IMG/VR virus record: IMGVR_UViG_3300011116_000399
Span: 1-58,158 of that record
DNA: 58,158 nucleotides
Reading direction: 5' to 3' (one strand)
DNA from: a virus
Part shown: in pieces, positions 4,018 to 30,955 of the stretch
How the letters are laid out: the number at the start of each line of letters is the position of its first letter
Position numbering within the stretch: the first letter of the stretch is position 1
Made by a program: the position numbers and the translations under genes
The notes under the pieces: model-generated
Databases searched by the model: none
The model's input: the letters and a program-made list of their open reading frames with translations, nothing else
What the model was told of the DNA's origin: nothing

Positions 4018-4563
4018 ATGGCGTTACCAGCATCATTATCAACTTGCACCGTTGTGGGTACTTATGTTGATTTAGTTGGTAACCCTGTTCGTGGTTCTAT
4101 CAACTTCACACCTCAAACAATCCTCAAAGAAGTTACAGCCAATGTCATTTTAATCCCAGTTGTAATTCAAAAAACTTTTGATTCAAGTGGTTCTTTTAGT
4201 GTTGTTTTACCTGTAACAAGCGATACAGATGTAATACCCCAACCTTTTATTTACACTATTGAAGAAAACTTTACTGGTGGTAGAACTATTGAGATTGCCT
4301 TGCCTCTATCAGTCGCAGGAACCACCCAAAACCTTGCAGATTTACTCCCTGCGCTATCTTCAGCGGACGCCGCTAGTTATGTGTCAGTAGACGCTTATCA
4401 GGCTCTATTAGCCCGTTACAACGATGCTGAGAGCATCCGTGTGCTTGTGGTAGACGCCGATGAATATGTAGATGATGCCGAGGGATATGCCTCAGATGCC
4501 TCAACAGCGGCGGCTTCTCTAAGTAACTATAATTCAAATCAGTTTATGTTAATGGGAGTCTAA
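4018..4563 (+). CDS. tail/head fibre protein with Ig-like N-domain
   Basis: 181 residues. The N-terminal 100 residues (TVVGTYVDLVGNPVRGSINFTP ... FIYTIEENFTGG) form a beta-sandwich-like domain closely paralleled in the gene at 4763. The remainder is helical (YNDAESIRVLVVDADEYVDDAEG) and ends in the hydrophobic tail NQFMLMGV. This tail resembles the ends of the products of 4565, 4763 and 8676. Likely a fibre subunit, with the shared tail as a docking signal (inference). Confidence 0.75.
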   Translation: MALPASLSTCTVVGTYVDLVGNPVRGSINFTPQTILKEVTANVILIPVVIQKTFDSSGSFSVVLPVTSDTDVIPQPFIYTIEENFTGGRTIEIALPLSVAGTTQNLADLLPALSSADAASYVSVDAYQALLARYNDAESIRVLVVDADEYVDDAEGYASDASTAAASLSNYNSNQFMLMGV

Positions 4564-4564
4564 A

Positions 4565-4762
4565 GTGGCAGAGCCGTATGTACCCATAGCCGATTACACG
4601 ACCTATAACAATTTATTGATTGAACTTGAGGTTACGACAGACAGCGCTGAAACCAATGCTGATGCCCTCGACCTTGCAGTTGATAATGCTTTAGTTCATA
4701 AGCAAACGGCAGAGAACGCAGTTGCTTCTAAGTTTGATTTGTTCTTTTTGGTAGGTGCATAA
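4565..4762 (+). CDS. short fibre-like subunit
   Basis: 65 residues with GTG start one base after the previous stop. It consists almost entirely of the helical segment and hydrophobic tail (FDLFFLVGA) seen at the C-terminus of the flanking paralogues, without the Ig-like domain. It may be a shortened paralogue or an adaptor for the longer fibres. Confidence 0.65.
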   Translation: MAEPYVPIADYTTYNNLLIELEVTTDSAETNADALDLAVDNALVHKQTAENAVASKFDLFFLVGA

Positions 4763-5440
4763 ATGGCGCTCGCACCGAGTTTAACCACGGTTCAAATTAC
4801 TGGTAATTATGTAGATTTTGAGGGTAATCCAATCCAAGGTCAGGTTAGATTTACTTTAGGAGATGTAATCCGTAATGGTACTGATGACCAAATGATTGCA
4901 CCATCAAGTGTAGTTGTTGGTTTAAGTAGCGGTGCTTTTACGGTAACCCTTCCTGCTACAAATGACCCTGACACAGTTCCAATCCCTTTTACCTATACAG
5001 TTGAAGAATCATTTCCTGGGGGTCGCTCTTACACAATTTCAGTTCCTTATGACACCGTAGGCTCTTTAGATTTAGCAGATTTAAGCCCAACTCCTACATT
5101 AAGTGAAACATTCACTCAGGCTATCGACCAAACATCTTGGAACGCACTAGAGGCAGATATTGATGCCCTCGATGTTGAAATCAATCAGACAACAGACAAA
5201 ATTCTTGCTACGGGCAAGTATTGGTATATCCCTAGTACATACGCTACTTATACAGCGCTAGATACTGCGTTTGCTACCTATACCGCCTTAACCGCTGGTA
5301 CTTACAGTTTAGATGGCGCTGATATTGCCACCTTTGTAACTACGGCTCAGGGCTATGAGTCAGCGGCTTCAGCAAGTGCAACAACAGCCACAAATACTGC
5401 GACTGGTACAATCAGTCCATTACTTCTAATCGGAGGATAA
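4763..5440 (+). CDS. fibre protein, paralogue of the 4018 product
   Basis: 225 residues, start directly after the previous stop. The N-domain (VQITGNYVDFEGNPIQGQV, later IPFTYTVEESFPGGRSYTIS) aligns with the 4018 product. It is followed by helical repeats (LEADIDALDVEINQT; YATYTALDTAFATYTALTAG) and the hydrophobic C-terminus SPLLLIGG. Together with 4018 and 4565 it forms a duplicated fibre family. Confidence 0.75.
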   Translation: MALAPSLTTVQITGNYVDFEGNPIQGQVRFTLGDVIRNGTDDQMIAPSSVVVGLSSGAFTVTLPATNDPDTVPIPFTYTVEESFPGGRSYTISVPYDTVGSLDLADLSPTPTLSETFTQAIDQTSWNALEADIDALDVEINQTTDKILATGKYWYIPSTYATYTALDTAFATYTALTAGTYSLDGADIATFVTTAQGYESAASASATTATNTATGTISPLLLIGG

Positions 5441-27667: not shown

Positions 27668-27870
27668 ACTGGAGTTTAATATGGACAGTAGTTGGTTTAG
27701 CCATTGCCAGTTTTTTTATTTTGCCGATTTACATTGGTTACATAATTGCTTACAAAAAAGCAATGCTAAAAATTGAATTGGAGTTCGTTGCAACAGCGAA
27801 TCACATTCACAAAAAAGTAAAGTTTGATGATGCAGTCGAACGCCTGTTCGAAGAAGGAGAAGCGATATGA
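27664..27870 (+). CDS. small membrane protein
   Basis: 68 residues. One N-terminal membrane segment (WTVVGLAIASFFILPIYIGY) and a cytoplasmic helical tail. ATGA overlaps at both ends place it in the same transcript as rusA and the HTH gene. Function unknown. Confidence 0.7.
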   Translation: MNWSLIWTVVGLAIASFFILPIYIGYIIAYKKAMLKIELEFVATANHIHKKVKFDDAVERLFEEGEAI

Positions 27871-28166
27871 GTACAGTAATGGAAGCAACAGAGTTAGACG
27901 GTAAAGGACTAGGTGAGGTCAAACTTCTAACAGATGCGATTCGTACCCACCAGTCGCAGATTCAAGACTTAGGTAAAAGACGCAAGCAGTTGATTCTTAG
28001 ATTACGAAAACAAAGAATCACTTACCGAGAGATTGCTGAAGCCATGGGTGTATCAGAGCAGTTAATTTACAAAATTATCCGCAACGATATTGAAAGAGTT
28101 CCTGAGTACGACAACGAAGGAAACCTAATTCGTAGACGAGGACGACCAGCGAAACAATTAGCCTAA
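27867..28166 (+). CDS. HTH protein with C-terminal AT-hook
   Basis: 99 residues. A helical N-terminus is followed by a sigma-region-4-like HTH (KQRITYREIAEAMGVSEQLI, YKIIRND) and by a minor-groove AT-hook-like end (IRRRGRPAKQL). Directly upstream of, and overlapping (TAATG), the cytosine methyltransferase. It may regulate or target the modification genes. Confidence 0.75.
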   Translation: MSTVMEATELDGKGLGEVKLLTDAIRTHQSQIQDLGKRRKQLILRLRKQRITYREIAEAMGVSEQLIYKIIRNDIERVPEYDNEGNLIRRRGRPAKQLA

Positions 28167-29137
28167 TGAAGTTCATAGAACTTTTTGCAGGTATTGGAGC
28201 CTTTCGACTTGGACTTGAAAGAACGGGTCATGAGTGCGTTTGGGCTAACGAATGGTTAGAGAGACCTAGGAGTATTTATGCAAGAAACTTCGGACACCAA
28301 CCTGACGGACGAGATATTAGAAATGTTTCCGCTGGAGACATTCCTGATGCCGACCTCCTCGTTGGCGGATTCCCTTGTGCGACTTTTTCAGTTGCAGGAA
28401 AGCGAACTGGATTCTCCTTGGATGACACCCGAGGGACACTCGCTTTTGAAATGTTTAGACTCGCTCACGAAAAATCAATACCGTATATCCTCTTTGAGAA
28501 TGTCAAAGGACTCCTCAATCACGACGGAGGAAGAACATTCGAAATCATCCTCGAAGTCTTGGATGGCTTGGGGTATGACTGTCAATGGGAATTGCTTAAC
28601 AGCGAAAATTTTGGAGTCCCACAACACAGAGAACGGGTATTCCTTATCGGACATCTTAGAGGAAACCCCCGACCAAAAGTATTTCCTATCGGACGAGCAA
28701 GTAACAGAAATCTTGAGACGGACAAAACAAAACAAAATGGAAGGTCGGGGTTTTTCTCCAACATTTCTCCAACACTAGATGCTCATTATTACAAAGGTGG
28801 GAACTCACGACCTTATGTATCAGTACAGGCAGTTGTGAATCCATCAATAAAAGTAAAGAATCAAAACGGGAGGTTAATAAAAAATCATAACGAATCAAGT
28901 TTCACTTTGACTGCAACCGACATACATGGAGTTGCGTTAGATGATGGAACAAAAATAAAATTAAGAAAATTAACCCCTTTGGAGTGCGAGCGCCTTCAAG
29001 GATTACCCGATGGATGGACGGAGTTCTACGAAGATGGAAGAAGAGTTTCAGATTCCGAAAGATACGAACGATGCGGACGGACAATCACTATCCCAGTCGT
29101 GGAAGCGATTGGTAGAAAACTTCATGACTTCTACTGA
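28166..29137 (+). CDS. DNA (cytosine-5) methyltransferase-like enzyme with Arg in motif X; candidate carboxymethyltransferase
   Basis: 323 residues, close to M.HhaI in length. Motif I FAGIGAFRLGL (7-17), motif IV GGFPCATFSVAG with catalytic Cys71, motif VI ENV (111-113), motif VIII QHRERVFLIG (153-162) and motif IX KLTPLECERLQGLPDGW (268-284) are all present. Motif X should read GNSVVxxVxxxIG but here reads CGRTITIPVVEAIG, so the near-invariant Asn is Arg305 (codon CGG 29078-29080). From memory, changing the equivalent Asn374 of M.MpeI to Lys/Arg allows carboxy-SAM as cofactor. The next gene, overlapping by 14 bases, encodes a CmoA-like protein. Inference: it transfers a carboxymethyl group to cytosine. 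Ordinary methylation remains the alternative. Confidence 0.85.
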   Translation: MKFIELFAGIGAFRLGLERTGHECVWANEWLERPRSIYARNFGHQPDGRDIRNVSAGDIPDADLLVGGFPCATFSVAGKRTGFSLDDTRGTLAFEMFRLAHEKSIPYILFENVKGLLNHDGGRTFEIILEVLDGLGYDCQWELLNSENFGVPQHRERVFLIGHLRGNPRPKVFPIGRASNRNLETDKTKQNGRSGFFSNISPTLDAHYYKGGNSRPYVSVQAVVNPSIKVKNQNGRLIKNHNESSFTLTATDIHGVALDDGTKIKLRKLTPLECERLQGLPDGWTEFYEDGRRVSDSERYERCGRTITIPVVEAIGRKLHDFY

Positions 29138-29771
29138 GCCATTTTCGTTTGACACGATAAAAAACTTTGATGAGCATATCGCTCAATCAATCCCCAACTA
29201 TCAAACGCTGACTGAAGCAATCTGTGACCTGAGTACATACTTCATGACTGAAGATACCCAAGTGATTGACCTTGGTTGCTCAACTGGAAAACTTTTAGAA
29301 AGACTTCCTCACCGTGGTAGAAAAGTTGGCATCGATATAGCCGATAACCTTTTGCCTGAGTCCCATGATGAGACTTTATACATCCGCCGAGACTTAAGAG
29401 CCATAGAGAATTTTGGTAAGTCCAGTTTGATTCTTTCAATCTTCACCCTGCAATTCATTCCATACGAAGACCGACCAAACATCCTGAGTAACATCTATGA
29501 ATCTCTAGTTGAGGGTGGGGCTTTTATATGGGCTGAGAAAGTCCGAGAGGAAGACGGGGAACTAGAGCAAGCCATCAATGGCGCCTTTTTTGACTTCAAG
29601 CGTAAGGCTTTTACGCCCGAGCAGATATTAAACAAAGAGCGAGACTTGAGACCAATCATGAAAGTCAATTCATCTGTTAGGAATCAGATATTGGCTGAGA
29701 ACGCTGGCTTCACAGTTGGCACAATGTTTTGGAAGTTCTACAATTTCGAAGCGTGGATTTACATTAAATGA
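29124..29771 (+). CDS. CmoA-like carboxy-SAM synthase homologue
   Basis: 215 residues from ATG 29124, inside the end of the methyltransferase gene; upstream in-frame codons shadow that gene. It follows E. coli CmoA along its length: FSFDTIKNFDEHIAQSIPNY, QVIDLGCSTGKLL (SAM site), FTLQFIP, GGAFIWAEKV, FFDFKRKAFTPEQIL and FWKFYNF. CmoA converts SAM plus prephenate to carboxy-SAM. E. coli Arg199, which binds the cofactor carboxylate, aligns to Glu172 with Arg173 next to it, so the key contact may be shifted by one. CmoA normally serves tRNA wobble-uridine modification with CmoB; no CmoB is seen here, but a C5-methyltransferase is adjacent. Confidence 0.8.
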   Translation: MTSTEPFSFDTIKNFDEHIAQSIPNYQTLTEAICDLSTYFMTEDTQVIDLGCSTGKLLERLPHRGRKVGIDIADNLLPESHDETLYIRRDLRAIENFGKSSLILSIFTLQFIPYEDRPNILSNIYESLVEGGAFIWAEKVREEDGELEQAINGAFFDFKRKAFTPEQILNKERDLRPIMKVNSSVRNQILAENAGFTVGTMFWKFYNFEAWIYIK

Positions 29772-30955
29772 AAGCGAAGATAAAAGTTGGTCAAGTTGCT
29801 TCAGTTGCTATCTCATCCCTTGAGGCGTACCCGACAAATCCTCGTCGTGGCGATATTGAAGCGATTGCTCAGTCACTCAAAGCCCATGGGCAGTACAGAC
29901 CGATTGTTGTTCAGATTGGTTCGAATTTTATCTTGGCAGGGAATCACACCTACAAAGCGGCAAAGAAACTTGGCTGGAAGAAAATCAAAATAACCTATGT
30001 CGATGTAGATGAAGAGAGCGCTCGCAAGATTGTCTTGGCTGATAATCGCATGACCGACCTTGCGACCTATAACGAACCTCTATTGAAATCTTTACTCTCA
30101 GCCCTACCTGAGTTAGAAGGAACAGGGTTCACTAAAGCCGAGGTTGAGATTTTAGATAGGTTAAGTAAGGGCGATGACAAAACTAGCGTTGGAGATTCTA
30201 AGTCTTTACCTAGCGACCCTGAAGTAAAGATTAGCGCTTGGAAGTTTACAGTTGAGATGGATGCCTATAAAGCGTGGAAAGAACAACTCTACATAGATGC
30301 ACCGACAAAACAGAAAGCCATCCGAGCCATCAAAGACAGATTAGGACTACCTGAACCCAAGCCAGTTAAACCTGAACCTGAGGGTGAGCGTTCTGAGATT
30401 GAGGTAAGCGATGTTGAGACAGTTGGCATCAACGAGATTAAAGTCCATCCGCTAAATCCTAGAGAGGGCGATATAGGCTCAATCATTCAGTCCCTTGAGG
30501 TAATGGGTCAGTATCGACCTATCGTGGTCAATAAAACTACTAAACACATCCTTTCAGGAAATCACACATATCAAGCGGCGGTTCAGTTAGGATGGGAAAA
30601 GATTGCAGTTCATTGGGTCGATGTCGATGATGTTGAGGAGATAAAAATTCTTATTGTCGATAACCGAACCTCTGACCTAGCAACTTATGACCCACAGGAA
30701 CTAAATAAACTTCTGACGACAACTGGCTTGCGGGGAACAGGCTTTAGTCCCGAAGAGGTTGCCGAAATCTTGGGTGGGGGAAAATCCAAGCCTGGGCATA
30801 TTCCTGTGGGTCGTACAACAATTCGGGTTGGCGAACACACTATGAGAGTTCATACCGAAGACCTAAATGAATGGGCTAACACCATAAATGGCTGGAAAGA
30901 TATTGCCGAGTTATTATTTATTCCTATTGAGGCATGTACAACCGAGGTAGAATAA
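29768..30955 (+). CDS. double ParB/Srx-like domain protein
   Basis: 395 residues, ATGA overlap with the CmoA-like gene. Two ParB N-terminal-type domains in tandem: residues about 12-135 (YPTNPRRGDIEAIAQSLKAH, LAGNHTYKAAKKLGW) and about 215-330 (HPLNPREGDIGSIIQSLEVM, LSGNHTYQAAVQLGW). Both have GNHT where chromosomal ParB has GERR. The two repeats are more like each other than like ParB. Such proteins are frequent next to phage DNA methylases; nuclease, CTP-binding or DNA-marking roles are possible. Confidence 0.8.
   Translation: MKAKIKVGQVASVAISSLEAYPTNPRRGDIEAIAQSLKAHGQYRPIVVQIGSNFILAGNHTYKAAKKLGWKKIKITYVDVDEESARKIVLADNRMTDLATYNEPLLKSLLSALPELEGTGFTKAEVEILDRLSKGDDKTSVGDSKSLPSDPEVKISAWKFTVEMDAYKAWKEQLYIDAPTKQKAIRAIKDRLGLPEPKPVKPEPEGERSEIEVSDVETVGINEIKVHPLNPREGDIGSIIQSLEVMGQYRPIVVNKTTKHILSGNHTYQAAVQLGWEKIAVHWVDVDDVEEIKILIVDNRTSDLATYDPQELNKLLTTTGLRGTGFSPEEVAEILGGGKSKPGHIPVGRTTIRVGEHTMRVHTEDLNEWANTINGWKDIAELLFIPIEACTTEVE

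Follow-up and report, generated by a model that had tools for sequence, protein, structure and literature searches.

A phage gene pair predicted to carboxymethylate DNA cytosine: an M.HhaI-type methyltransferase homologue with a motif X arginine beside a CmoA-like gene

Two overlapping phage genes, encoding a C5-cytosine methyltransferase (C5-MTase) homologue and a CmoA-like protein, probably form a natural DNA carboxymethylation system; from sequence comparisons, the probability of this reading is put at about 0.87. The window, a complete virus record from IMG/VR (58,158 bp), holds both genes and also carries a Mu-type portal, Mu F and tail genes. Starting from host SAM and prephenate, the CmoA-like protein would make carboxy-SAM (Cx-SAM), which the MTase homologue would take instead of SAM. 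Cys71 is expected to attack cytosine C6 as usual, so that the carboxymethyl group would go to C5, with the donor carboxylate held by Arg305 and room for the donor made by Ala72. The predicted product is 5-carboxymethylcytosine (5cxmC), at sites that would be set by exchangeable recognition modules, and its role would probably be to block host nucleases. A preliminary description of this DNA had proposed that carboxy-SAM is made here for an MTase that produces 5cxmC; the contrast between Arg- and Asn-bearing enzymes over many phages, together with a biochemical precedent (PMC12783734), supports that proposal. The features concerned are these:

27867..28166, + strand: small HTH protein, a possible operon member (PF13384, 1.1e-8), with a 1-nt overlap with the MTase start; present in 53/53 close relatives.
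28166..29137, + strand: 323-aa C5-cytosine methyltransferase, M.HhaI type, and candidate carboxymethyltransferase for DNA cytosine (PF00145, TIGR00675, AlphaFold2 model).
28376..28381, + strand: catalytic Cys71 and Ala72 of the MTase, Ala72 standing in place of the Gln (M.HhaI Gln82) kept in 70/70 Asn-type representatives.
28694..28954, + strand: putative target-recognition region of the MTase, with exchangeable modules (SPTLDAHYYKGG at residues 201-212; FTLTATDIHGV at 246-256) that are gained, lost and swapped among relatives.
29078..29080, + strand: Arg305 codon, motif X, aligned with M.HhaI Asn304 and SpCmoX Arg350 (pairwise alignment).
29124..29771, + strand: putative carboxy-SAM synthase, CmoA-like; 215 aa when started at the likely ATG (the mechanical ORF opens at 29010; phrog_4752, TIGR00740, PDB 1im8).
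29768..30955, + strand: protein with two ParB_N domains, a possible accessory (PF02195 twice; phrog_8071, 6.7e-164), with a 4-nt overlap with cmoA.

In profile searches the 323-residue MTase matched PF00145 (9.3e-72, spanning residues 1-319) and TIGR00675 (5.6e-77), and its motifs are intact (FAGIGA, GFPC71, ENV111, QHRER153 and the motif X block YERCG-R305-TITIP). The preliminary description was thus right to see a C5-MTase with all catalytic motifs overlapping a second gene. The PC, ENV and QxRxR motifs are invariant among relatives, and a pseudogene or dead MTase was rejected on this ground. An AlphaFold2 model has pLDDT mostly above 85 in the catalytic domain but a mean of 69.7, the recognition region being poorly resolved, and is support at the level of the fold. 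The nearest Asn-type homologues are about 42% identical, and a nucleotide-level search among named phages returned only weak matches over part of the MTase gene. Multispecific phage MTases carry target-recognition modules. While the catalytic body stays constant among relatives of the window MTase, short modules are exchanged in the stretch between motif VIII and motif IX (PTLDAHYYKGG, PTLTANMGTGG, PTLDGHYWKG, TAQDRHGV), and from their sequences we infer that these are target-recognition modules (TRDs). All close relatives whose contigs have room for it keep the gene order HTH-MTase-CmoA-double ParB-TerS-TerL (MTase 56/56, ParB 58/58, HTH 53/53, terminase 32/32); since Arg305 is in addition invariant in 108/108 close relatives, the MTase-CmoA arrangement is not a matter of chance.

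Natural DNA carboxymethylation has been described in Synechococcus phage S-B43. There, CmoA makes Cx-SAM, the C5-MTase homologue CmoX uses it to carboxymethylate the C of GC, and CmoY adds glycine by ligation (Nat Commun, 7 Dec 2025; PMC12783734). A search of the accessible literature found natural DNA carboxymethylation in no other paper, and the earlier statement that 5cxmC was known from engineered enzymes only is out of date. The activities of SpCmoA and SpCmoX were shown by LC-MS and crystallography (PMC12783734). In crystal 8YF3, Arg350 of SpCmoX, at the M.HhaI Asn304 site, contacts the Cx-SAM carboxylate, and wild-type SpCmoX accepts only Cx-SAM (PMC12783734). The same work found that 5cxmC blocks HhaI, which makes protection from host restriction plausible for the window phage by analogy, and its survey, in which SPPC plus the motif X Arg were required, counted 5,615 CmoX; ParBc genes were frequent beside them (PMC12783734). 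The window shares with the CmoA-CmoX-CmoY system a CmoA gene beside a C5-MTase homologue with a motif X Arg, a catalytic Cys no longer followed by Gln, a lack of CmoB, and a ParB-domain gene that is often nearby. It differs from S-B43 in that its MTase has GFPC rather than SPPC, branches within the Asn-type enzymes, carries exchangeable recognition modules and lies upstream of cmoA, with no CmoY. Of the published CmoX features, the C5-MTase fold with its catalytic motifs and the Arg at the SpCmoX Arg350/M.HhaI Asn304 position are present, while the sequence around the catalytic Cys is GGFPCATF in the window MTase and its relatives and not SPPC. By the published definition the protein is therefore no CmoX, but its sequence indicates that it very probably works like one. 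An engineered enzyme, M.MpeI N374K, has been described as accepting Cx-SAM (PMC12783734); it too has a basic residue in motif X, whereas the window MTase is natural, has Arg where M.MpeI N374K has Lys, is accompanied by a putative Cx-SAM synthase of its own and has Ala at the Gln82 site.

By sequence and fold, the window MTase is closest to the M.HhaI-type (GFPCQ...GNSV) phage and bacterial C5-MTases, with which it shares all catalytic motifs, but it has Ala and Arg in place of Gln82 and Asn304, and a CmoA gene next door. Gln82 and Asn304 of M.HhaI are motif IV and X residues common to C5-MTases, which engineers have shortened to admit bulky donors (PMC10666283); they correspond to positions 72 and 305 of the window MTase. 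Enzymes of this M.HhaI-like family with Arg (29 representatives) and with Asn (70 representatives) at the motif X site were compared, and five positions in motifs IV and X, namely 72, 73, 301, 302 and 305, separate the two groups. The Arg-type enzymes have Ala at 72, against Gln in 70/70 Asn-type representatives, and Arg at 305, against Asn in 70/70; the Asn-type group was selected by its Asn, so that column 305 is split by construction, while the Gln/Ala split at 72 is not. Position 73 is Thr in the Arg-type, position 301 is Glu against mostly Lys, and position 302 is Arg against mostly Gln. In SpCmoX the Gln after the Cys is likewise gone (SPPC-S) and motif X has the block ER-V-GR. This sequence evidence suggests that the donor pocket of the window MTase has been reshaped to take a larger, acidic group; if the carboxymethylation reading holds, two residues would suffice to flag the modification in sequence databases. 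C5-MTases with Gly rather than Arg at the motif X site also adjoin CmoA in Staphylococcus phages and in plasmids, so linkage to CmoA alone is no proof of the role of Arg305. In the Staphylococcus phages L137 (8497-9513) and L138 (7642-8655), CmoA lies beside a C5-MTase that keeps the usual Gln next to the Cys (GSPCQ) but has Gly (VVGGVINQ) at the motif X site, and in L137 a CmoY-like gene lies between the two; these enzymes may accommodate Cx-SAM in a third way, or they may simply methylate. Large plasmids of Jeotgalibacillus, Aneurinibacillus and Paenibacillus have CmoA followed by C5-MTases with YERxSGIP, again with Gly at this site (L144, 7639-8754; L147, 7905-9212; L145, 8548-11230), and Lys or Thr follows the Cys in L144 and L147. 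The Paenibacillus plasmid MTase is interrupted by an IS200/IS605-type tnpB insertion.

The second gene had been described as CmoA-like, and that assignment stands: its product matches phrog_4752 (1.2e-55) and TIGR00740 (CmoA; 9.1e-28) along its length, and PDB entries 1im8 (3.2e-21), 4iwn and 4gek at E-values from 3e-21 to 2e-16. What changes is its start, which had been placed at 29010. A relative, L127, has a separate CmoA of 214 aa starting 9 nt past its MTase, and for this reason the ATG at 29124, from which cmoA overlaps the MTase stop by 14 nt, is the better choice. The TIGR00740 score is 97.5 bits, below the curated (equivalog) cut-off of 193, and the window protein is therefore a divergent, phage-type CmoA; it is 38% identical to the CmoA of S-CRM01 and 37% to that of S-B43. 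It shares the fold and most SAM-contact residues with bacterial CmoA (E. coli 4gek; YecO 1im8), the alignment showing that Tyr39, Asp62, Gly64, Ser66 and Asp117 are kept, but it lacks Arg199 and a CmoB partner. In E. coli CmoA, Arg199 forms a salt bridge to the carboxylate (PMC3663124). At this column both the window protein and SpCmoA have Glu, with Arg four residues later, an arrangement that reads in the alignment as a charge swap across one helix turn, and both have the cofactor-helix pattern KExxLR; since SpCmoA is a faster enzyme whose activity is proven by experiment, Arg199 does not define phage CmoA. The identity of only 37-38% to a proven enzyme, the score under the TIGR00740 cut-off and the missing E. 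coli Arg199 nevertheless count against the carboxymethylation reading. The absence of CmoB, as first described, was borne out in the window record, and TIGR00452 likewise had no match in 10 related contigs; the tRNA cmo5U pathway was rejected, there being no CmoB in the window.

The preliminary description had called for a survey of the co-occurrence of CmoA with motif X Arg MTases, and had named independent carriage of the two genes by homologous phages as evidence against its proposal. In the survey the two genes travelled together. CmoA lies within 4 kb of 83/84 Arg-type MTases (pooled, deduplicated), a raw count that is biased, some of the loci having been retrieved using CmoA itself, and that does not represent 83 independent events, many of the loci being close kin; the 84th contig stops 15 nt past the MTase. 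CmoA was near 1/74 Asn-type MTases, and that locus also holds an Arg-type enzyme. An unbiased scan led by Asn-type queries met four Arg-type loci, all with CmoA (4/4), and in whole contigs CmoA was present in 0/33 of the Asn-type and 4/4 of the Arg-type. When the MTases were grouped into 18 clusters (<80% identity), in many unrelated neighbourhoods, CmoA was the next gene downstream in 17 of them, and none of the other neighbours was constant. The backbones of these 18 clusters range from packaging to replication modules. Because CmoA is the sole constant neighbour over 18 lineages in unrelated backbones, the MTase-CmoA pair appears to move as a two-gene cassette.

Profile searches found no CmoY (Asn_synthase) in the window, nor in another 19 related contigs searched whole, and no Amidoligase_2 in the window; a CmoY-like gene is present in 0/84 Arg-type GFPC loci, against 70/80 SpCmoX-like loci. 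As no CmoY-type ligase was found in the window, contigs or loci, the modification in this phage may stop at 5cxmC, left unligated. It is possible, though we would not favour it, that 5cxmC is an intermediate here too and that its carboxyl group receives a further moiety, in the way that CmoY adds glycine in S-B43; candidates for this step would be the double-ParB protein, a phage enzyme so far unrecognised, or a ligase of the host. The DNA of S-B43 was found to contain the glycine adduct alone, 5cxmC being an intermediate and a handle for the glycine (PMC12783734). A ParB gene lies beside the pair in 58/58 close relatives, and ParBc genes are likewise frequent by published CmoX, but the double-ParB gene is present in just 6/18 of the wider lineages. 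Against an intermediate stand the lack of an Asn-synthase or Amidoligase_2 gene in the window, where the ORFs are annotated in part, the 0/84 count, and the constancy of CmoA alone among the neighbours in 18 lineages. Some relatives do offer candidates for further steps. A sub-lineage with an Arg-type MTase (L131, L132 and L133) encodes Amidoligase_2 (PF12224) a few kb from MTase-CmoA, beside a GATase_6 glutamine amidotransferase in L132 (with a homologue in L131) a few kb upstream of the MTase; together they are a plausible alternative to CmoY that could amidate 5-carboxymethylcytosine. In L128, two glycosyltransferase genes (GT4-like and GT17-like; 754-1935 and 4485-5252) lie upstream of an Arg-type MTase-CmoA pair. 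Both cases lend some weight to an intermediate role.

The proposal that the window MTase uses Cx-SAM leaves two histories, of which a single origin of the Arg, shared with the published CmoX, is the unlikely one; the window enzyme would then be just a divergent member of that group. The ER-x-GR block common to the window MTase and SpCmoX is consistent with such an origin, and a single Arg clade was not rejected on a larger, quicker tree with long branches (AU p 0.142). It was rejected on a careful tree from which long-branch rows were left out (p-AU 0.017, 28 log-likelihood units), and the Arg-type enzymes with GFPC group together as a single clade (SH-aLRT 99) nested within the Asn-type M.HhaI-like enzymes, apart from SpCmoX and the phage PaBG enzyme. 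In pairwise alignment the window MTase reaches 166.6 bits with M.HhaI and 46.4 with SpCmoX, and in a Foldseek search with its model M.HhaI was rank 1 among PDB matches and 8YF3 (SpCmoX) rank 18. In all, Arg arose twice on the tree; the independent-pairs test, with just two changes, had no power. The tree tests, bit scores and Foldseek ranks make an independent origin likely rather than proven, and the window lineage is probably a second, convergent lineage of DNA carboxymethyltransferases, without an asparagine-synthetase-type ligase. A wider claim, for which the chances seem to us evenly balanced, would be that DNA carboxymethylation evolved at least twice from ordinary C5-MTases through one and the same pair of pocket substitutions (the Gln next to the catalytic Cys lost, and motif X Asn to Arg), and that the M.HhaI-type MTase-CmoA cassette spreads in unrelated phages, leaving unligated 5cxmC, with exchangeable recognition modules, as a final anti-restriction base. 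If so, a modification of DNA that was regarded as unnatural up to 2025 would have had more than one origin. The published survey, by demanding SPPC, leaves out the whole GFPC lineage and with it a large number of phages. Enzymes of the M.HhaI type whose recognition modules can be swapped would be convenient tools to write a carboxyl handle at chosen DNA sites, and the existence of unligated 5cxmC as a natural end product becomes directly testable.

It is very improbable that the MTase instead makes plain 5-methylcytosine while CmoA travels with it for unrelated reasons, such as depleting SAM or supplementing the host's tRNA cmo5U by way of a host CmoB. All other motifs of the MTase are typical of the M.HhaI type and CmoA can serve CmoB in bacteria, but Arg305 and Ala72 occupy donor-pocket sites, Arg goes with CmoA and Asn without it, the record has no CmoB, and SpCmoX, which carries this Arg too, takes Cx-SAM alone in its wild-type form (PMC12783734).

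A scan of a genome collection with the MTase alignment gave five relatives. The closest, L148 (NZBI01000015.1), is filed under a 'Nanoarchaeota' MAG and has the MTase-CmoA pair amid phage-like recombination and repair genes; viral contigs L221-L224 match it at 100% across the MTase, and it is probably a mis-binned phage contig. A Clostridia MAG contig (L149, 688-3032) has three genes in a row, for an Arg-type MTase, another C5-MTase and a CmoA-like protein. CmoA homologues also occur in other settings. In the jumbo phages L142 and L146 (Erwinia phage Y3 and Yersinia phage fHe-Yen9-02), CmoA adjoins an asparagine-synthetase-like (CmoY-like) gene, and no C5-MTase was found within 7 kb. In a human faecal 'phage' scaffold (L136) and a Phocaeicola plasmid (L143), a CmoA homologue with no C5-MTase nearby lies by transporter-like and reductase-like genes, where Cx-SAM possibly serves a small-molecule pathway.
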